Assembly: GCA_913041415.1 (NCBI GenBank)
Contig: CAJWHS010000017.1
Coordinates: 1 to 36,824 of the forward strand
Source of the DNA: an uncultured Acidimicrobiaceae bacterium
GTDB taxonomy: Bacteria > Actinomycetota > Acidimicrobiia > Acidimicrobiales > Aldehydirespiratoraceae
Direction: 5' to 3'
DNA length: 36,824 nucleotides
Shown: positions 24,008 to 35,133 of the stretch, piece after piece
Layout: each line of letters begins with the position of its first letter
How positions within the stretch are numbered: the first letter of the stretch is position 1
Notes under the pieces: generated by a model
Database searches by the model: none
Seen by the model: the letters and a program-made list of their open reading frames with translations, nothing else
What the model was told of the DNA's origin: nothing
Program-made: the position numbers and the translations under genes

Positions 24008-25714
24008 TCAGCGGTCGACGCTGATGGTCTCGACGAGTCGATCCGCGATGGCCAAGATGCTGACGCGCTCGGTTTCCGCGGTTGCCCGAGGCGTGTACTC
24101 GACCTCGCCGTCGGCAAACGCCTTCGGGCCGAAGGTGACCCGATGTGGGATGCCGATGAGTTCGGCGTCGGCGAACTTCACGCCCGCGCGAGCGTCGCGG
24201 TCGTCGATGATGACGTCGACGCCTCGCTGGGTCAGTTCGGCGTAGAGCGCCTCGGCCCCGGCGACGGATGCTTCGTCCTTGACCGAAACGATCGTGATGA
24301 CGGCCTCGAACGGCGCCACCGAGGTCGGCCAGATCATGCCGGCGTCGTCGTGGTGGGTCTCGACAATCGTGGCGATCGCCCGCTCGACACCGATGCCGTA
24401 GCTGCCCATCACGATCGGATGCTGGGTGCCCTCGGGGTCGAGCACCGTGGCCCCCATCGCTTCGGCGTATTTCGTGCCGAGCTTGAAAATGTGGCCGGCC
24501 TCGATGCAACGGACGATCTCGATCGGGGTGCTGCACATCGGGCATGCCTCGCCGATGCTGACCTCGCGCAAGTCGGCCCACTCGTCGACCGCAATGTCTC
24601 GCTCGACGGAGACGCCGGTGTAGTGCCAGTCGTCCTCGTTGGCGCCGGTGGTGAGGCCGGATCGGCCCAAGAGCGAGTGGTCGGCGATGATCCGCAATTC
24701 CTCGACCCCGACCGCACCGAGCGAGCCGGGCATCGCCCCGAGGTTCTCGTGGGCTTCCTCCGGCGTGGCCGGCCTGAGGTCGATCGCGCCGGAGGTGTCC
24801 AGAAGTTTCTGGAGGTTTAGCTGATGGTCGCCGCGCAAGAGTGCGAGCGTGACCTGGCCATCGAGCACCATCACCATGGTCTTGATCTGGTGTTCGGCGG
24901 GCGCGCCACCGTCGATCTCCTCCAGCGCCTTGATTGTGCGCACACCCGGTGTCGGGAAACGCTCGAGTTCGGGGATGCCGCGATCGGTCACTTCAGGCAG
25001 GGTCGACGTGGCCCGCTCGATGTTGGCGGCGTAATCGCAGTTGGAACAGATGACGACATCGTCCTCGCCGGCGGGGGAGGGGACCATGAACTCTGTCGAG
25101 CCGGAACCGCCCATGGCGCCGGAGCTGGCGTCGACCGGCACGGCGGGCAGGCCCATGCGGTCGAACATCGCAATGTAGGCGGCATGGTGTTTGTCGAACG
25201 CCGTATCGAGGCCGGCCTGGTCGAGATCGAGCGAGTAGGCGTCCTTCATCGTGAATTCGCGCACTCGGAGCAAGCCGCTCTTGGGTCGGGGCTCGTCACG
25301 GAACTTGGTGTGCATCTGGTACCAGATCTGAGGGAGCGCCTTGTAGGAAGTGACCTCCTGGGCGAGGTGGGCGAACACCTCCTCCTCGGTCATGCCGAGT
25401 GCGTTCTCGGCTCCCTTGCGGTCGGTCACGCGGAACATCTCGTCGCCCATGACCTCCCAGCGGCCCGACTTCTTCCAGAGTGAGGCGGGGTGCATCGTGG
25501 GCAGCTGGAATTCTTGACCGTCGATGGCATCCATCTCCTCACGGATGATCTCGGCGACCTTGCGAAAGACCCGCCACCCCAGCGGCAGCATCGAGTAGTG
25601 GCCGGCGTGCAATTGGCGGATGAAGCCGCCGCGGATCAGCAGCCTATGACTTGCGGCTTCAGCATCGGCGGGAGCATCGCGAAGCGTGGGGGTGTGGAAG
25701 TTCGACCAGCGCAT
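24008..25714 (-). CDS. proS: Prolyl-tRNA synthetase (bacterial type with editing insertion)
   Basis: ProS charges tRNA-Pro with proline. The 568-residue protein has the class II core: motif 1 around RLLIRGGFIRQLHAGHYSMLPLG, motif 2 in KFRDEPRPKSGLLRVREFTMKDAYS, and motif 3 in GSYGIGVERAIATIVE. The inserted editing domain that removes misacylated alanine lies between motifs 2 and 3 (about residues 225-400), with KTMVMVLDGQ and LGAMPGSLGAVG. The anticodon-binding domain is at the C-terminus. The ORF track start at 26047 is wrong; ATG 25714 begins the family sequence MRWSNFHTPTLRDAPADAE, with TACCGT as a likely -10 box 8 bases upstream, so the mRNA is probably leaderless. It is divergent from the formate dehydrogenase operon and followed by the IclR gene 64 bases later. 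Confidence 0.95.
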   Translation of the reverse strand: MRWSNFHTPTLRDAPADAEAASHRLLIRGGFIRQLHAGHYSMLPLGWRVFRKVAEIIREEMDAIDGQEFQLPTMHPASLWKKSGRWEVMGDEMFRVTDRKGAENALGMTEEEVFAHLAQEVTSYKALPQIWYQMHTKFRDEPRPKSGLLRVREFTMKDAYSLDLDQAGLDTAFDKHHAAYIAMFDRMGLPAVPVDASSGAMGGSGSTEFMVPSPAGEDDVVICSNCDYAANIERATSTLPEVTDRGIPELERFPTPGVRTIKALEEIDGGAPAEHQIKTMVMVLDGQVTLALLRGDHQLNLQKLLDTSGAIDLRPATPEEAHENLGAMPGSLGAVGVEELRIIADHSLLGRSGLTTGANEDDWHYTGVSVERDIAVDEWADLREVSIGEACPMCSTPIEIVRCIEAGHIFKLGTKYAEAMGATVLDPEGTQHPIVMGSYGIGVERAIATIVETHHDDAGMIWPTSVAPFEAVITIVSVKDEASVAGAEALYAELTQRGVDVIIDDRDARAGVKFADAELIGIPHRVTFGPKAFADGEVEYTPRATAETERVSILAIADRLVETISVDR

Positions 25715-25722
25715 GGGTGTGA

Positions 25723-25728
25723 ACGGTA
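25723..25728 (-). promoter_or_regulatory. Probable -10 box of a leaderless proS promoter
   Basis: On the minus strand this is TACCGT, a TANNNT-type -10 element ending 8 bases before the proS ATG at 25714. No Shine-Dalgarno sequence lies in between. Confidence 0.45.
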
Positions 25729-25817
25729 CCGTTCCGCGAGGCGACCCGGGGCGGAGTTCGGCCGCAAACGAGGTCGTTAGCCTGGAGCCAAAAAGGGCCG
25801 TTCGTCGTTCCCAGTCG

Positions 25818-25850
25818 TTCCACGATCCGGTACTGTTCCGCCTCGTGGGA
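25818..25850. promoter_or_regulatory. Paired 15-bp operator overlapping the fdh promoter and start (site D)
   Basis: The boxes are TTCCACGATCCGGTA (25818-25832) and TTCCGCCTCGTGGGA (25836-25850), again 18 bp apart; each differs from the fhs boxes at two positions. The element contains a TACTGT -10-like box (25831-25836) and the GTG start at 25845, so a bound regulator would cover both promoter and start codon of a leaderless fdh mRNA. Confidence 0.68.
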
Positions 25851-27779
25851 AACAAGGCGCTCCGCAAAGCCAAGAAGTTCAGTGATCCCCTGCCCCGGCT
25901 GACCACCCCGATGGTGCGCGAGAACGGCGTGCTGCGGGAAGCCACATGGGACGAGGCCCTCACGCGGGCCACCGAGGGATTCATCAAGGTGAAAGATGAA
26001 CTCGGTCCCGGGGGATTCGCCGTCTTCTCCTGTTCTAAGTCGACCAACGAGATGAACTATGCGGCACAGAAGTTCGCCCGCATGGCCCTCGGCACGAACA
26101 ACATCGATTCGTGCAATCGAACTTGACACGCTCCAAGTGTCGTCGGTCTGGCGGCAGTGTTCGGAGCGGGTGGCGGTACCTCCTCGTACCTCGAGGTCGA
26201 GGAGACCGACGTCATCTTGCTGTGGGGATCCAACGCCCGTGAGGCCCACCCCATCTACTTCCATCACGTCCTGAAGGGGCTCGACAACGGGGCTCGGATG
26301 TTCGCGGTCGATCCGCGCCGGACCTCGTCGGCCAAGTTCGCCGACGCCTGGCTCGGGCTGAACGTCGGCACCGACGTGGCGATGGCCAACGCGATCGGTC
26401 GGGAGATCATCGCCGCCGATCTCCACAACAAGGACTTCATCGCTCACTCGTCGCAGGGCTTCGAGGACTACAAGGCCCATGTCGAGCCGTACACGCTCGA
26501 GTACGCCGAGGCGATCACCGGGGTTCCAGCCGAAGCGATTCGCGAGGTGGCCCACGCCTACGGGTTAGCGGACAAGGCCCAGATCCTCTGGACCCTCGGT
26601 ATCACCGAGCACCACAACGGTGTCGACAACGTGAAGTCTCTGTGCAACCTCGCGCTCCTCACCGGCCACGTCGGTCGTTGGGGCTCGGGTCTGGTGCCGC
26701 TGCGTGGGCAGAACAATGTGCAGGGCGGCGGTGACATGGGTGCGCTGCCTAACAAGTTCCCGGGCTTCCAGGACATCACCAACCCTGACCATCGGGCGAA
26801 GTTCGAGACCGCCTACGGCATGGAACTCAACCCGAACAACGGCAAGCACCTCACCTTGATGCTCGAGGCGATGGAGCACGGCGAGATCAAGGCCGCCTAC
26901 TGCATCGGCGAGAATCCGGCCGACTCCGAGGCGTCCGCCGGCCATAGCCGGGCGCTCCTTGAAGGCCTCGACATCCTTGTCGTGCAGGACATCTTCATGA
27001 CCGCCACCGCTCAGCTCGCCGACGTCGTCTTGCCGTCGTCGGTCGGTTGGGCCGAGTGCGACGGCACCGTCACCTCGTCGGAGCGTCGCGTGCAGCGCGT
27101 GCGCGCGGCCGTCACCCCGCCCGGTGAGTGCCGCCACGATCACGAGATCATCGGCGAGCTCGCCAACCGCATGGGTGTCGACTCGTGGGGCGACCCGACC
27201 CCGCAGGAGCTGTGGGACGAGTTGCGGTCGCTGTCGCCGCTACACGCCGGTATGAGCTACGAGCGTCTTGAAGCCGAGGGCGGCCTGCAGTGGCCGTGCC
27301 CGTCAGAGGATCATCCCGGTTCGCCGTTCCTGCACGGCTGGCTCTGGGAGGACGACCTTGGCGGTCGCGCCCCATCGCCGTTCTCGATCACGGAGCACGA
27401 GGGCCCGAAGGAGCAGCTGACCGACGAATTCCCGCTGCGCCTCACCACAGGTCGATCGCTTGATTCCTACAACACCGGTGTCCAGTCCGGCGGTTTCGAG
27501 AGTCCGATTCGCAGTGGTGACGAACTTGACATGAACCCGGGCGACGTGGCCGCCCTCGGCATCGCCGACGGGGAGCGTGTGCTCGTGTCCTCGCCGCGCG
27601 GCTCGGTCGAGATGGGCGTGCGCGTCCAGCCCGACATTCCCGCCGGCCTCACGTTCACCACGTTCCACTTCCCGGACCTGGTCGACATCAACCTCATCAC
27701 CAACGACGAATGGGACCGTGACTCCGGCACCGCCGAGTTCAAGGCCGCCGCGATTCGAGTCGACAAGCTGCTTGCGTAA
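25845..27779 (+). CDS. fdhA: Formate dehydrogenase catalytic subunit, selenocysteine-containing, lacking its N-terminal [4Fe-4S] domain
   Basis: Two ORFs of the track (25686-26126 and 26157-27779) are one gene in the same frame joined across TGA 26124-26126. Read as selenocysteine, residue 94 lies in CNRT-U-HAPSVVGL, which matches the E. coli FdhF active site (ARV-U-HGPSVAGL). A SECIS hairpin follows at once. The protein (644 aa) is a molybdopterin oxidoreductase: WDEALTRATEGF, CSKSTNEMNYAAQKFARMALGTNNID, LLWGSNAREAHPI, GNVQGGGDMGALP-like NNVQGGGDMG, and a C-terminal MopB dinucleotide domain with LTTGRSLDSYNTGVQS and NPGDVAALG. The N-terminal Cys-rich [4Fe-4S] domain of FdhF/FdsA is absent from this gene and is found at the end of the 29548-30435 product instead. 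GTG 25845 is the only sensible start; TACTGT 8 bases upstream suggests a leaderless mRNA. It oxidises formate to CO2; its stop overlaps the next ATG (TAATG). Confidence 0.9.
26129..26168 (+). promoter_or_regulatory. SECIS element of the formate dehydrogenase mRNA
   Basis: Directly after the UGA (26124-26126) the mRNA can fold with a lower stem CGCUCC (26129-26134) pairing with GGAGCG (26163-26168) and an upper 7-pair stem UGUCGUC/GGCGGCA closing a GGUCU apical loop (26145-26149). The GGUCU loop and its distance from the UGA equal those of E. coli fdhF, where SelB binds. Two upper pairs are G-U wobbles. Confidence 0.85.
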
Positions 27780-29551
27780 TGGCTGATCTGTACATCTCCG
27801 AGGAGACCGCCGACGACATCGAGATGGCGGCGGTCGACGCAGTGCTCGACGGCCGGTTTGTCGTCGTTCGCGAGAGCGAGCGGCTGATCCGCGCCGGCAC
27901 ATCGGCGCGTCATGGCCACCGCCACTTGTTGTTGCCTGCGTTGCATGCGCTGCAGAACGCGAAAGGTTGGATCAGCCCGGGCGGCCTCAACTATGTGTGC
28001 GAGACCTTGCAGGTCCCTCCAGCCGAGGCCTACGGCGTCGCTACCTTCTATGACTTGTTCCGGGTCGAGGAGCCGATGCAGTTCGGCGATGTCACCCACG
28101 TGTGTGTCGATGCGGCCTGCCAGATCGCCGGTGCGGCTGACCGCATTGCCGAACTGAAGGCCCAGGGTTTGAACGTGCACGAGTCACCGTGCCTCGGCCA
28201 GTGCGAGCGTGCCAACGACGTCACCGGCGAGGTCGCCGTGTTCGTCCAGAGTGTTGGCGGCCCCGACTCCGTGGCTGCCGACGACACGCCCTATGAGCTG
28301 TTCCACCAAAAAGGTGACGAGTCGCTTCGCTTGCTGAAGCGCATCGGTGTAGTCGACCCGACCTCCCTCGACTCCTACCTAGCGCACTGCGGTTACGAGT
28401 CGCTCACCGCCGCGATCGAGATGGGTGCTGAGGCTGTTTGCACCGCCGTCGCCGACTCGGGCCTATCGGGCCGTGGCGGTGCCGCCTTCCCCACCGGCAT
28501 CAAGTGGCGGGCAGTCGCCGCCGAGCAGGGCTGCCCGAAGCACGTCGTCGCCAACTGCGACGAGTCCGAGCCCGGCACCTTCAAGGACCGGGTGGTGATG
28601 GAGAACGATCCGTTCGCCGTCATCGAGGCACTCACCATCGCCGGCTTCGCCACGGGCGCCGAAAACGGCTGGATCTACATCCGCGGCGAGTACCCACTCG
28701 CCACCGCTCGTCTGCAGAACGCCATCGACCAAGCGCTCGACGCCGGTCTGCTCGGCGACGATGCCGCCGGCTCCGGCCATCGGTTCCACATCGAGATCCG
28801 TCGCGGCGCAGGCGCTTACATCTGTGGTGAGGAGACCGCGCTCTTCGCCTCACTCGAAGGTTTTCGCGGTGAGCCGCGGAGCAAGCCACCGTTCCCGACC
28901 ACCCATGGTCTCTTCCAGGAACCGACGGCAATCAACAATCCCGAGACCTTGCTCAACGTGCTCGACATCGTGCAGATCGGCGCCGACGGCTACCGCAGCC
29001 GCGGCAGCGAGCGGTCGCCGGGCACCAAGCTGCTCTGCCTCAGCGGCCGGGTCGCGAAGCCTGGCGTCTACGAGGTCGAGTTCGGAACCACGCTCGGCGA
29101 GGTGCTCGAACTGGCGGGTGGGCTCACCGGTTCCGGCGAACTCAATGCCGTCTTGATGGGTGGCGCGGCCGGCTCCTTTGTCGACCGCCGCTACCTCGAC
29201 ATGCCGATCACCCTCGAGGACGCTCGCGAACGCGGCACCACCCTCGGCTCGGGTGTCGTCATGGCCTTTACCGATGAGATCGACCTCGTCGACGTGCTCG
29301 TGCGCATCTCGCAGTTCTTCTCCGACGAGTCGTGCGGCCAGTGCGTGCCGTGCCGAGTCGGTTGCGTCCGCCAGAACGAGACAATGGTCGTGCTGCAGGA
29401 GAAGGGGTCGCTCACGTCGGAGCGGCGCCAGCTCGTCAACGACATCGCCCAGGTGATGGTCGACGCCTCGATCTGCGGCTTTGGCCATACCGCCACGAAC
29501 GCCATCAACTCCGCCATCAAGCTGGGCCTCGTCCCGGGGGTGCCGTCGTGA
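27779..29551 (+). CDS. Formate dehydrogenase diaphorase subunit, NuoE-NuoF fusion (NAD+-reducing)
   Basis: The 590-residue protein fuses a NuoE-like [2Fe-2S] domain (residues about 40-150) with a NuoF-like FMN/NAD domain (about 190-590). The NuoE cluster ligands are Cys109, Cys114, Cys138 and Cys142 (CVDAAC and CLGQC). The NuoF part has SGRGGAAFPTGIKW, NCDESEPGTFKDR, GAGAYICGEETALFASLEG for FMN and NADH, and the [4Fe-4S] motif ESCGQCVPCRVGC with a fourth Cys in ICGFG. It takes electrons from the molybdenum/tungsten site through the iron-sulfur subunit and reduces NAD+, as in FdsB/FdsG or HoxF-type diaphorases. ATG at 27779 overlaps the fdhA stop, and its own stop overlaps or precedes the third gene, so the three subunits are co-translated. 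Confidence 0.92.
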   Translation: MADLYISEETADDIEMAAVDAVLDGRFVVVRESERLIRAGTSARHGHRHLLLPALHALQNAKGWISPGGLNYVCETLQVPPAEAYGVATFYDLFRVEEPMQFGDVTHVCVDAACQIAGAADRIAELKAQGLNVHESPCLGQCERANDVTGEVAVFVQSVGGPDSVAADDTPYELFHQKGDESLRLLKRIGVVDPTSLDSYLAHCGYESLTAAIEMGAEAVCTAVADSGLSGRGGAAFPTGIKWRAVAAEQGCPKHVVANCDESEPGTFKDRVVMENDPFAVIEALTIAGFATGAENGWIYIRGEYPLATARLQNAIDQALDAGLLGDDAAGSGHRFHIEIRRGAGAYICGEETALFASLEGFRGEPRSKPPFPTTHGLFQEPTAINNPETLLNVLDIVQIGADGYRSRGSERSPGTKLLCLSGRVAKPGVYEVEFGTTLGEVLELAGGLTGSGELNAVLMGGAAGSFVDRRYLDMPITLEDARERGTTLGSGVVMAFTDEIDLVDVLVRISQFFSDESCGQCVPCRVGCVRQNETMVVLQEKGSLTSERRQLVNDIAQVMVDASICGFGHTATNAINSAIKLGLVPGVPS

Positions 29552-30435
29552 CGATGACCGACGATCCGACCTCGGTTGTGACCGTGTCACTGACGATCGA
29601 CGGGCAGGCCGTCGAGGTCCCTGAGGGCACCTCAATTCACAAGGCCTGCAAGTCGGCCGGCATCGACACGCCCACCCTGTGCTGGGCTGAGAACCTCACC
29701 CCGGTTAACGTTTGCCGGGTGTGTGTCGTCGAAGTCGAGGGCCAGCGGGCACTTGTCCCGTCGTGTGCTCGTCCCGCCGAAGAGGGCATGGTCGTCGAGA
29801 CCGATTCTGAGCGGGTGAAGCACAGCCGCAAGATGGTGCTCGAGTTCCTCGGCTCCGGGGTCGACCTCGATCAGGCCCCCGAGCTGCAGAAGTGGATGGA
29901 TCACTACGGCTCCGACACCTCGCGCTACGACCAGTACGAGCTGCCAGCGCTGCGTATGGGCGAAACGCCGAAGATCCAGGACAACCTCTACATCCGCGAT
30001 TACGACCGCTGCGTGCTCTGTTACAAGTGCGTCGAGGCGTGCGGCGACGACGCCCAGCACACGTACGCAATCGCGGTGAGCGGCCGAGGTTTCGACGCTC
30101 GGATCTCCACCGAGTTCGACGTCACCCTGCCCGACTCGGCCTGTGTGTACTGCGGCAACTGCATCGGGGTCTGCCCGACCGGCGCCATTCAGTTCAAGAC
30201 CGAATATGACCTCCGACAAGAAGACGACTGGCGGCCTGAGGATCAAGACGTCACCCGAACGGTCTGCTCCTACTGCGGTGTCGGCTGCAACCTCGAACTG
30301 CACACCCAGGACGACAAGATCGTTAAGGTCACGTCGCCGGCCGACCACTCGGTCACCAGCGGCATGCTCTGCATTAAGGGCCGTTTCGGTTGGCAATACG
30401 TCCAGCCGGTCGATGCCCCCACCCGCAAAGCCTGA
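29548..30435 (+). CDS. Formate dehydrogenase iron-sulfur subunit carrying the displaced N-terminal [4Fe-4S] domain of the catalytic subunit
   Basis: From ATG 29554 the protein has 293 residues: a plant-type [2Fe-2S] domain (Cys43, Cys54, Cys57, Cys71), a two-cluster ferredoxin domain (CVLCYKCVEAC at 153-163; CVYCGNCIGVC at 197-207) and a terminal CSYCGVGCNLELH...CIKGRFGW (Cys238, Cys241, Cys245, Cys273, Lys275). The last block is the Fe4S4 domain that normally opens the formate dehydrogenase catalytic chain, where the Lys relays electrons from the pterin. Here it ends this subunit and is missing from the FdhA gene. The His(Cys)3 cluster segment usual between the [2Fe-2S] and ferredoxin domains has no cysteines (residues 90-130). 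GTG 29548 overlaps the previous stop (GTGA) and has GGGGG at good spacing; ATG 29554 is the alternative. Confidence 0.88.
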   Translation: MTMTDDPTSVVTVSLTIDGQAVEVPEGTSIHKACKSAGIDTPTLCWAENLTPVNVCRVCVVEVEGQRALVPSCARPAEEGMVVETDSERVKHSRKMVLEFLGSGVDLDQAPELQKWMDHYGSDTSRYDQYELPALRMGETPKIQDNLYIRDYDRCVLCYKCVEACGDDAQHTYAIAVSGRGFDARISTEFDVTLPDSACVYCGNCIGVCPTGAIQFKTEYDLRQEDDWRPEDQDVTRTVCSYCGVGCNLELHTQDDKIVKVTSPADHSVTSGMLCIKGRFGWQYVQPVDAPTRKA

Positions 30436-32133: not shown

Positions 32134-33078
32134 TCAGGCGAGGAGGTCGGCCGCTAGGTCAGCGGCAACTGTGGCGGGGGACCGGCCGTCAGGGGTGAGG
32201 CCGTCGAGCGACCGTGCGATCGACCGTTCCATGCGGGTGGTGAGCCGACTCGCGACCTCATAGCGGAAGCGTGCGGCACGGCGGCGTTCGAGTGCGCTCG
32301 TGGCTTCGAGATGCGCTTGGTGGGCGGTGACCGCCTCCCACATAGCCTCGACGCCCAAACCATCGGTGGCGGTGGTCATCAGGATCGGCGGTCGGTAACC
32401 GGTGCCGTCCTCGAGGCCGCTGACGTGGCTGAGATCGAGCATGAGTTCGAGATCCCGGCGGGTGTCGTTGGCGCCGTCGCGATCGGCCTTGTTGATCACG
32501 AACACGTCTGCGACCTCGAGTAGTCCCGCCTTGTTGGCCTGCACCGCATCACCCCAGCCAGGATTCACGACCACGACGGTGGTGTCGGCCGCGCCGGCGA
32601 CGTCGACCTCAACCTGACCAACGCCGACCGTCTCGATCAGCACGGGGCCGAACCCGCAGGCGTCGAAGGCTCGCACCGAACCGGGGACCGACAGTGCCAG
32701 ACCGCCGGCGTAGCCGCGGGTGGCGACCGAGCGGATGAAGCCGCCGTCTCCGGCGACATCGTCCATGCGGACCCGGTCGCCGAGGATGGCGCCGCCGGTG
32801 AGCGGGGAGGAGGGATCGACGGCCAGCACCGCTGGCTTCAGACCGAGGGTCGGCAGGTGGCGGATGAGCTGGCCGGTTAGTGTCGATTTGCCGGCACCCG
32901 GAGCGCCGGTGATGCCGACGACGTGAGCGCCCTTCGTGGCCGGATGGGTGAGATCGGTGATCTCGTCGGCCGGCTCACCACCTCGTTCGATCAGGGTGAG
33001 CATTCGGCCGATGGCGCGACGATCACCCTCGAGCGCACGCCCCACGAGCTCGGGGACCGACAGCTTCTTGACGCTCAC
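32134..33078 (-). CDS. meaB: MeaB-type G-protein chaperone of a B12-dependent acyl-CoA mutase
   Basis: MeaB/ArgK-type GTPases protect and reload B12-dependent acyl-CoA mutases. The 314-residue protein has Walker A GAPGAGKST, the switch-type VLIETVGVGQVEVD, VVVVNPGWGD and the guanine-specificity NKADRDGA. The ORF track starts at TTG 33123, inside the mutase small-subunit gene; GTG 33078, 4 bases after that gene's stop, gives the normal N-terminus VSVKKLSVPELVGRALEGDRR and avoids a 40-base overlap. It directly follows icmA and icmB in the operon, so it probably serves this mutase and not another one. Confidence 0.9.
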   Translation of the reverse strand: MSVKKLSVPELVGRALEGDRRAIGRMLTLIERGGEPADEITDLTHPATKGAHVVGITGAPGAGKSTLTGQLIRHLPTLGLKPAVLAVDPSSPLTGGAILGDRVRMDDVAGDGGFIRSVATRGYAGGLALSVPGSVRAFDACGFGPVLIETVGVGQVEVDVAGAADTTVVVVNPGWGDAVQANKAGLLEVADVFVINKADRDGANDTRRDLELMLDLSHVSGLEDGTGYRPPILMTTATDGLGVEAMWEAVTAHQAHLEATSALERRRAARFRYEVASRLTTRMERSIARSLDGLTPDGRSPATVAADLAADLLA

Positions 33079-33082
33079 GACG

Positions 33083-33505
33083 TCAGGTTCGTGCGGCGAC
33101 TGCGCCCCGAACAGCTGTGACAACCTCTTCGGCCGGGGCTCCCGGACCGAGGATCGCAGCGACGCCGGAGCCTTCGAGGATAGGAATGTCGGCCTCGGGG
33201 ATGATGCCGCCGATGATCAGCGGGATGTCGAGGTCGGCGTCATGGAGCGCAGCGAGCATCGACGGGGCGAGCGCGAGATGACCAGCGTTGTGCATCGACA
33301 GGCCGATGGCGTCAGCGTCCTCCTCTTCGGCAGCGGCCACGATCGACGCGGTCGTTTGGCGCAGGCCGAGATAGACAACCTCCATGCCCGCGTCGCGAAG
33401 GATGCGAGCAACGACCTTGATGCCGCGATCGTGGCCATCGAGGCCGAGCTTCGCTAGCACGACGCGAATGGTCGGCTGCTCGGTGTTGGTGGATTCGATA
33501 GCCAT
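33083..33505 (-). CDS. icmB: Acyl-CoA mutase small, cobalamin-binding subunit (IcmB-like)
   Basis: The 140-residue protein is the free-standing B12-binding domain of split acyl-CoA mutases. The lower-ligand motif DxHxxG is LDGHDRG, followed by SMHNAGHL and IIGGIIPE, the other loops that hold the cobalamin tail. It has the size of Streptomyces IcmB and of archaeal methylmalonyl-CoA mutase small subunits. Its ATG overlaps the stop of the large-subunit gene (TGATG), which fits strict co-expression. With the large subunit it would form the adenosylcobalamin radical enzyme; the specificity is set by the large subunit. Confidence 0.88.
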   Translation of the reverse strand: MAIESTNTEQPTIRVVLAKLGLDGHDRGIKVVARILRDAGMEVVYLGLRQTTASIVAAAEEEDADAIGLSMHNAGHLALAPSMLAALHDADLDIPLIIGGIIPEADIPILEGSGVAAILGPGAPAEEVVTAVRGAVAART

Positions 33506-35133
33506 CAGACGATCGCCTGTTCCACATAGGTGCCGAACACGTTGCGCATGGCGTTGCTGATCTCTTCCTCGGTGGCGTAGGTCTTCACCGCATCGATGAT
33601 CGGGGGCATGAGATTGACCGTTGGGTCCTCGGCGGCATTGCGGATGGCGGCGAGTGATGCCTCGACGGCGGCCGAGTTGCGCTCCTGCTTCACCGCCTCG
33701 AGTCGTTTGCGCTGGAGTTCCTCGACGGAATGGTCGATGCGGAGGAGGTTGGTCTCATCTTCGTCGTTGCCGTCGGTGAACTCGTTCAGGCCGACGATGA
33801 TCCGCTGGTCGTTGTTGATCTCCCGTGCGAAGCGGTAGGCGGCGTCGGCGATCTCGCCGACGAAGTAGCCGTTGTCGATCCCGGCGTAGACCCCCTCGAG
33901 GATCGAGCCGTTGCCGAGTTCGTCGAGGTGGGCGAATACGGCCTCGGCCTGAAGTTCCATCTCGTCGGTCATCCACTCGACGTAGGGGGCGCCGCCGAGC
34001 GGGTCGGCCACATTGGTTACGCCCGTCTCGTGAGCGACGACCTGCTGGGTCCGCAGTGCGATGCGTGCCGCCTTCTCGGTCGGGAGGGCAAGGGCCTCGT
34101 CGAAGGAGTCGGTGTGCAGCGACTGGGTGCCCCCGAGGGCGGCCGACAACGCCTGGATTGCGACGCGGGCGATGTTGTTTTCGGGCTGCTGGGCGGTGAG
34201 CGACACGCCAGCAGTCTGAGTGTGGAACCGGCACATCATCGCCCGCTCGTCGGTGGCGCCGTAGCGCTCCTTCATCCACCGGGCCCAGATGCGGCGGGCG
34301 GCACGGAACTTGCCGATCTCCTCGAAGAAGTCGGAGTGGGCGTTGAAGAAGAACGAGAGGCGACGCCCGAACTGGTCGACGTCCTGCCCTTCGGCGAGGG
34401 CGGCTTCGACGTAGGCAAACCCGTTGGCGAGGGTGAACGCGAGTTCCTGTGCCGCCGTCGAGCCGGCCTCGCGGATGTGGTATCCGGAGATCGAGACGGG
34501 GTGCCACTTCGGCATTTCGGCCGAGGTGTAGCGGATCATGTCGGTGACGATCCGCATGCTCGGGCGCGGGGGATAGATGTACTCCTTCTGCGCCTGGTAT
34601 TCCTTCAAGATGTCGTTCTGGATCGTGCCGGCCAGATCGGACTTGGCGACGCCGCCCTGTTCGCCGACAGCGATGTACATTGCCAGCAGCGCGGCAGCAG
34701 GGCCGTTGATCGTCATCGACGTGGAGACCTTGCCAAGGTCAATGTCGGCGTAAAGGTCCTCCATATCGCGCAGGGTATCGACGGCGACGCCGGCGCGGCC
34801 GACCTCGCCGAGTGCCCAGGGGGAGTCGGAGTCGTAGCCCATGAGGGTGGGCATGTCGAAGGCGGTGGAGAGGCCCATGCCGCCGTTGCGGAGGATCTCC
34901 TTGAAGCGGGCGTTGGTGTCCTCGGCTGTGCCGAAGCCGGCGAACATCCGCATCGTCCAGAGACGAGAGCGGTAGCCGGCGGCGTGCAGGCCTCGGGTGA
35001 ACGGGTACTGCCCGGGAAGTGGTGCGTCGCCGAAGACCGGATCGACCGGCACTCCGGACATCGTCTCGAAGGGCACGTCGCGGAGGTGGGTTGCGTCGTA
35101 CTGCTCTTGCCAGGCGTGCTTTTTGTCGTCCAT
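33505..35133 (-). CDS. icmA: Acyl-CoA mutase large subunit, isobutyryl-CoA mutase-type residues
   Basis: The 542-residue protein is the substrate-binding TIM-barrel subunit of an adenosylcobalamin acyl-CoA mutase (YPFTRGLHAAGY, LWTMRMFAGFGTAEDTN, TIQNDILKEYQAQKEYIYPP, ISGYHIREAGS, RFHTQTAGVSLTAQQPENN). Databases would probably name it methylmalonyl-CoA mutase, but the two residues that bind the methylmalonyl carboxylate (Tyr89 and Arg207 in P. shermanii) are Phe64 and Gln182, the pair seen in isobutyryl-CoA mutase (Phe80, Gln198). The spacing of 118 residues is equal in all three. The catalytic His is His219 and Tyr218 precedes it. Met63 replaces the usual Gln. So the likely reaction is isobutyryl-CoA to n-butyryl-CoA or a similar branched acyl-CoA. 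GGAG lies 7 bases before the ATG. It heads a five-gene operon divergent from marR. Confidence 0.85.
   Translation of the reverse strand: MDDKKHAWQEQYDATHLRDVPFETMSGVPVDPVFGDAPLPGQYPFTRGLHAAGYRSRLWTMRMFAGFGTAEDTNARFKEILRNGGMGLSTAFDMPTLMGYDSDSPWALGEVGRAGVAVDTLRDMEDLYADIDLGKVSTSMTINGPAAALLAMYIAVGEQGGVAKSDLAGTIQNDILKEYQAQKEYIYPPRPSMRIVTDMIRYTSAEMPKWHPVSISGYHIREAGSTAAQELAFTLANGFAYVEAALAEGQDVDQFGRRLSFFFNAHSDFFEEIGKFRAARRIWARWMKERYGATDERAMMCRFHTQTAGVSLTAQQPENNIARVAIQALSAALGGTQSLHTDSFDEALALPTEKAARIALRTQQVVAHETGVTNVADPLGGAPYVEWMTDEMELQAEAVFAHLDELGNGSILEGVYAGIDNGYFVGEIADAAYRFAREINNDQRIIVGLNEFTDGNDEDETNLLRIDHSVEELQRKRLEAVKQERNSAAVEASLAAIRNAAEDPTVNLMPPIIDAVKTYATEEEISNAMRNVFGTYVEQAIV

Follow-up and report, generated by a model that had tools for sequence, protein, structure and literature searches.

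FdhA and SelD are the most common bacterial selenoproteins (PMC5029168; PMC1794560). Actinomycetospora chiangmaiensis is reported to have three formate dehydrogenases (FDHs) with selenocysteine (Sec). Of these, FDH3 of strain DSM 45062 (FdhA3-FdhB3-FdhC3, with FdhA3 as WP_084681743.1) is given as cytoplasmic, with subunits of 640, 614 and 316 aa. Formate removal was measured in the strain and depends on selenium, and the genome holds selA, selB and selD, with selA and selB beside the FDH1 cluster (PMC7176365).

Here, a window of 36,824 nucleotides was analyzed, which is contig 17 of a metagenome-assembled genome (MAG) of 2.68 Mb with a completeness of 97%. We are nearly certain, from comparison with related genes, that fdhA in this window would encode the catalytic chain of a Mo (or W) formate dehydrogenase, cytoplasmic and probably linked to NAD+, and that the UGA at 26124 would be decoded as Sec via SelB and a hairpin. 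The features of the locus are as follows:

25845 to 27779, + strand: fdhA, catalytic Mo-bisPGD subunit with predicted Sec (Pfam and TIGR01591; putative start codon)
26124 to 26126, + strand: in-frame TGA, residue 94, predicted to be decoded as Sec (aligned to the Sec of E. coli FdhH; TGA in 80/80 named relatives)
26139 to 26155, + strand: candidate SECIS apical hairpin, stem GUCGUC/GGCGGC, loop GGUCU (conservation, covariation, freeze of third bases)
27779 to 29551, + strand: fdhB, NuoE-NuoF fusion, diaphorase (Pfam Complex1_51K, NADH_4Fe-4S, 2Fe-2S_thioredx, SLBB)
29554 to 30435, + strand: fdhC, NuoG-like 2Fe-2S/4Fe-4S part plus Molybdop_Fe4S4 (Pfam Fer2_4; Molybdop_Fe4S4, 8e-21)

The fdhA reading frame and its internal TGA

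The ORF list of the window contains two ORFs, 25686-26126 and 26157-27779, which lie in a common frame. Reading through the TGA at 26124-26126 gives ...NNIDSCNRT-U-HAPSVVGL... and meets no further internal stop. The joined gene has 644 codons, counting the TGA, and ends with TAA. In a phmmer alignment, the TGA residue falls directly above the Sec (printed X) of 'ccarvXhgpsvagl' in E. coli FdhH (1aa6), and the neighborhood is free of gaps. The alignment with the F420 formate dehydrogenase 9t1s likewise places an X at the Sec column. The joined frame matches Pfam Molybdopterin (8e-69) and Molydop_binding (1.7e-22), and the closest solved chains to FdhA are formate dehydrogenases. Its best NCBIfam match is TIGR01591 (formate dehydrogenase alpha; model positions 51-672, 7e-190), with a score of 632 bits that lies below the curated cut-off of 666. 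The initial annotation had proposed that the two ORFs are one gene with a TGA at the catalytic Sec/Cys position of FdhF-type enzymes, and both the open joined frame and the gap-free alignment to 1aa6 agree with this. Sequence comparison confirms the pair of ORFs as a single fdhA gene whose TGA is predicted to be read as Sec.

The start codon of fdhA is likely GTG 25845, because the relatives remain alignable as far as about this codon and proS, which is divergent, begins near 25714. The initial annotation had implied the same start. GTG 25686 was ruled out as the start, since homology begins further downstream and proS diverges there. In 25822-25845 (+ strand), the motif TACTGT lies ~8 nt upstream of GTG 25845, and a clear ribosome-binding site is absent. 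A leaderless start at GTG 25845 is possible and is offered only as a lead.

In this largely uncultured, Acidimicrobiales-like family, annotation with the standard code would split the only close formate dehydrogenase into two ORFs. Formate oxidation and selenium dependence are therefore easily missed in the family.

Relatives and the selenium machinery

TGA was found at the Sec codon in 80/80 named relatives with 68-98% identity. These relatives, nearly all of them MAGs, belong to Acidimicrobiia, Acidimicrobiales, Acidimicrobiaceae, Ilumatobacter, Microthrix and unplaced Actinomycetota. TGA was also present in 28 of the 29 additional loci read from the phylum. Of 397 genomes drawn evenly across the phylum, 166 had a match to the family, and nearly all orthologues with at least 58% identity contained one TGA. 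A nonsense mutation or assembly error in a Cys-type fdhA would have produced a pseudogene, for which a standard-code gene caller would give the two ORFs seen here. However, the same TGA occurs in all 80 independent relatives between conserved flanking residues, the frame is open across 644 codons with no second lesion, and sel genes are present in the genome. We regard a pseudogene as very improbable.

The machinery for decoding UGA as Sec was found in the genome, with every component scoring above its family cut-off. The tRNA-Sec (64 bits) has the anticodon TCA, and selA (372 bits) adjoins selB (291 bits). The C-terminal winged helix of the selB product matches SelB-wing_3; in known SelB, this is the part that binds the SECIS. 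The selD gene (340 bits) has a TGA of its own at the catalytic SHGAG-U-GCK site, and one TGA was present in each of the 44/44 SelD matches of the family. These genes are spread over the assembly, with fdhA, selA-selB, selD and tRNA-Sec on separate contigs, and selD is itself incomplete:

L020:10-834, contig C18 of the window's genome, - strand: selD, interrupted by the contig end

The tail of selD is probably C132:4023-4166. An FdhD-like protein was also seen, at 135.7 bits slightly short of its cut-off of 140.9. The initial annotation had expected selA, selB, selC and selD in this genome, which the detection of tRNA-Sec, selA, selB and selD bears out. It had also described selenoproteins as uncommon in actinobacteria, and this did not hold for Sec-type FdhA, which is not rare given the TGA in nearly all orthologues at or above 58% identity. 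As for its proposal that homologues be examined for Sec or Cys at the catalytic column, the column of the orthologues holds solely TGA (Sec) or TGC/TGT (Cys), and no other sense codon. Cys codons occur in four orthologues, all from one genus with genomes of 6-10 Mb:

L200-L203, in genomes G419, G212, G179 and G384: Cys orthologue loci

The Sec/Cys state requires a single change on the tree. In three of the four genomes with a Cys fdhA, no selA scored above the cut-off, while it was found in 18/18 of the tested genomes with a TGA-bearing fdhA. Among order-level relatives without this fdhA, 5/6 were also without selA. The remaining Cys genome, G419, has retained selA and therefore may have other selenoproteins. 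Within the genus of the window, selA was found in 9/9 genomes and a TGA-bearing fdhA in 7/9. G005 has selA and no fdhA; a Sec-type SelD would account for selA being kept, and the pattern is consistent with PMC1794560. A second fdhA-like copy was observed in G028 and G029, which belong to the family of the window genome. The G028 copies are 86% and 74% identical to that of the window, and one of the two in G029 is partial.

If TGA had been reassigned throughout the genome to a sense codon, e.g. Trp, the frame would stay open too. However, fdhB of the same operon terminates at an ordinary TGA (29549-29551, 2 bases upstream of the fdhC start), and therefore TGA also works as a stop here. In addition, the other residue in orthologues is Cys and never Trp, and the genome has a complete Sec system. 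The probability of a reassignment is negligible in our view, and Sec remains the residue that we assign to the TGA.

A candidate SECIS hairpin

Comparison of orthologues supports a putative SECIS hairpin directly 3' of the UGA. Its stem was intact in 115/115 Sec loci and disrupted in 4/4 Cys loci, and the loop was altered as well as the stem in all four of the latter. The two sets of orthologues provide a clean natural control for the SECIS. Third bases were compared over the 160 fdhA codons in which the residue is conserved and the third position is free to vary. Codons +6, +7 and +8, counted from the TGA, were the only ones with fully invariant third bases (rank 1-3 of 160), and codons +5 and +9 ranked 6th and 7th. 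The latter two vary together, with GTC accompanying GCG in 90 distinct sequences and GTG accompanying GCC in 12. Thus, the pair formed by nucleotides 18 and 30 is C-G in the 90 and G-C in the 12, with no mismatches. On a protein tree computed with FastTree after excluding the SECIS region, this swap took ~8 changes. When only strongly supported branches were used, five independent covariation pairs remained, all concordant (sign test, p = 0.06). The loop GGUCU was unchanged across the 102 distinct sequences.

The fold of the window hairpin as a single sequence was not significantly stable (z -0.89). Among synonymous samples of the window sequence, 19% folded equally well and 20% also formed the 6-bp stem. 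Single-sequence folding therefore gives no support for the SECIS. A search of the whole window with Rfam at gathering thresholds gave no match. A lower stem (nucleotides 7-11 with 40-44) is not claimed, as one of its pairs varies freely.

The same stretch bears on whether the locus encodes two separate proteins, a short one stopping at the TGA and one of 540 aa starting from GTG 26157, which is formally a start codon. This is highly improbable, since the break would interrupt the active site, the codons that separate the TGA from 26157 are conserved as protein while their third bases are over-conserved as a SECIS, and the Cys orthologues form a single continuous ORF. With UGA decoded as Sec in one FdhA chain, release at the UGA when selenium is short could possibly leave a truncated by-product.

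The split alpha subunit and comparison with known enzymes

Of 84 loci, 71 have the order fdhA-fdhB-fdhC; contig ends interrupt the remaining 13. The subunits have lengths of 644 (FdhA), 590 (FdhB) and 293 aa (FdhC). The operon contains the gene set of the NAD+-dependent Fds type, namely a NuoE/NuoF-type diaphorase and a NuoG-type FeS subunit. Pfam did not find a Molybdop_Fe4S4 domain in FdhA; this domain forms the C-terminus of FdhC, after the NuoG-like 2Fe-2S/4Fe-4S part. The TIGR01591 model splits at position 51, with 1-51 on FdhC and 51-672 on FdhA, and FdhA lacks the N-terminal Fe4S4 domain that the single-chain TIGR01591 type has in the same chain. The domain matches show that the predicted alpha subunit is divided exactly between the Fe4S4 and Sec/Mo domains, and that its halves flank the diaphorase gene in reversed order. 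Since the Cys orthologues share the fdhA-fdhB-fdhC order, the split is independent of Sec.

The split alpha chain is the least ordinary feature of the locus and a tractable example of one redox chain spread over two polypeptides. Our tentative suggestion, which we think somewhat unlikely to hold, is that the split alpha of this lineage represents an architecture not described so far, which would have its own assembly or regulation and a first electron transfer across a subunit interface. The accessible part of PMC7176365, which reports such a cluster, does not discuss a split of the alpha chain.

In the mechanism that we propose, SelB and Sec-tRNA-Sec would decode UGA 26124 as Sec, guided by the hairpin immediately 3'. 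By homology, Sec94 would ligate the metal and act on formate together with His95 and the Arg in the motif PLRGQNN. Formate would be oxidized at Mo-Sec, and electrons would leave FdhA for the Fe4S4 cluster on a separate chain, at the C-terminus of FdhC. They would then move along the FeS clusters of FdhC to the FMN/NAD site of FdhB, where NAD+ would be reduced. We infer Sec insertion itself, assembly of the complex, NAD+ as the acceptor and the physiological direction.

Elsewhere in the window, genes for an acyl-CoA mutase large subunit, a B12-binding small subunit and a MeaB-like GTPase follow one another (32134-35133, - strand). The large subunit has Phe at what we take to be the substrate Tyr position of methylmalonyl-CoA mutase, and therefore its substrate may be another acyl-CoA. 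A link of fdhA to 2-hydroxyisobutyrate degradation through these genes was unsupported, as they lie on the opposite strand and matched only generic mutase families.

Compared with E. coli FdhH (fdhF, 1aa6), FdhA has its predicted Sec at the equivalent column followed by His, and the Arg within the motif RGQNNVQG. The hairpin shares the loop GGUCU at codon offset +7/+8 with the E. coli fdhF SECIS. In contrast to FdhA, FdhH has the Fe4S4 domain within its own polypeptide and functions in formate hydrogenlyase, and the E. coli stem differs in having a bulged U and a four-base loop. The subunits also correspond to those of Rhodobacter capsulatus FdsABG (6tg9), with FdhC spanning FdsA 24-305, FdhA spanning FdsA 306-931, and the NuoE-NuoF fusion of FdhB corresponding to FdsG plus FdsB. 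The Fds enzyme uses Cys. FdsA is a single 958-residue chain, whereas two chains are encoded here, with the catalytic half first. Like FDH3 of A. chiangmaiensis, the complex would have Sec in the first of three subunits, and these are of similar size (644/590/293 here compared to 640/614/316 aa). Unlike FDH3, it comes from another class of the phylum, and selA-selB are on a different contig from fdhA. From size, Sec and subunit composition, we infer orthology to FDH3. A Sec formate dehydrogenase with matching subunit sizes is already known from an actinobacterium (PMC7176365), and the locus here is a further case.
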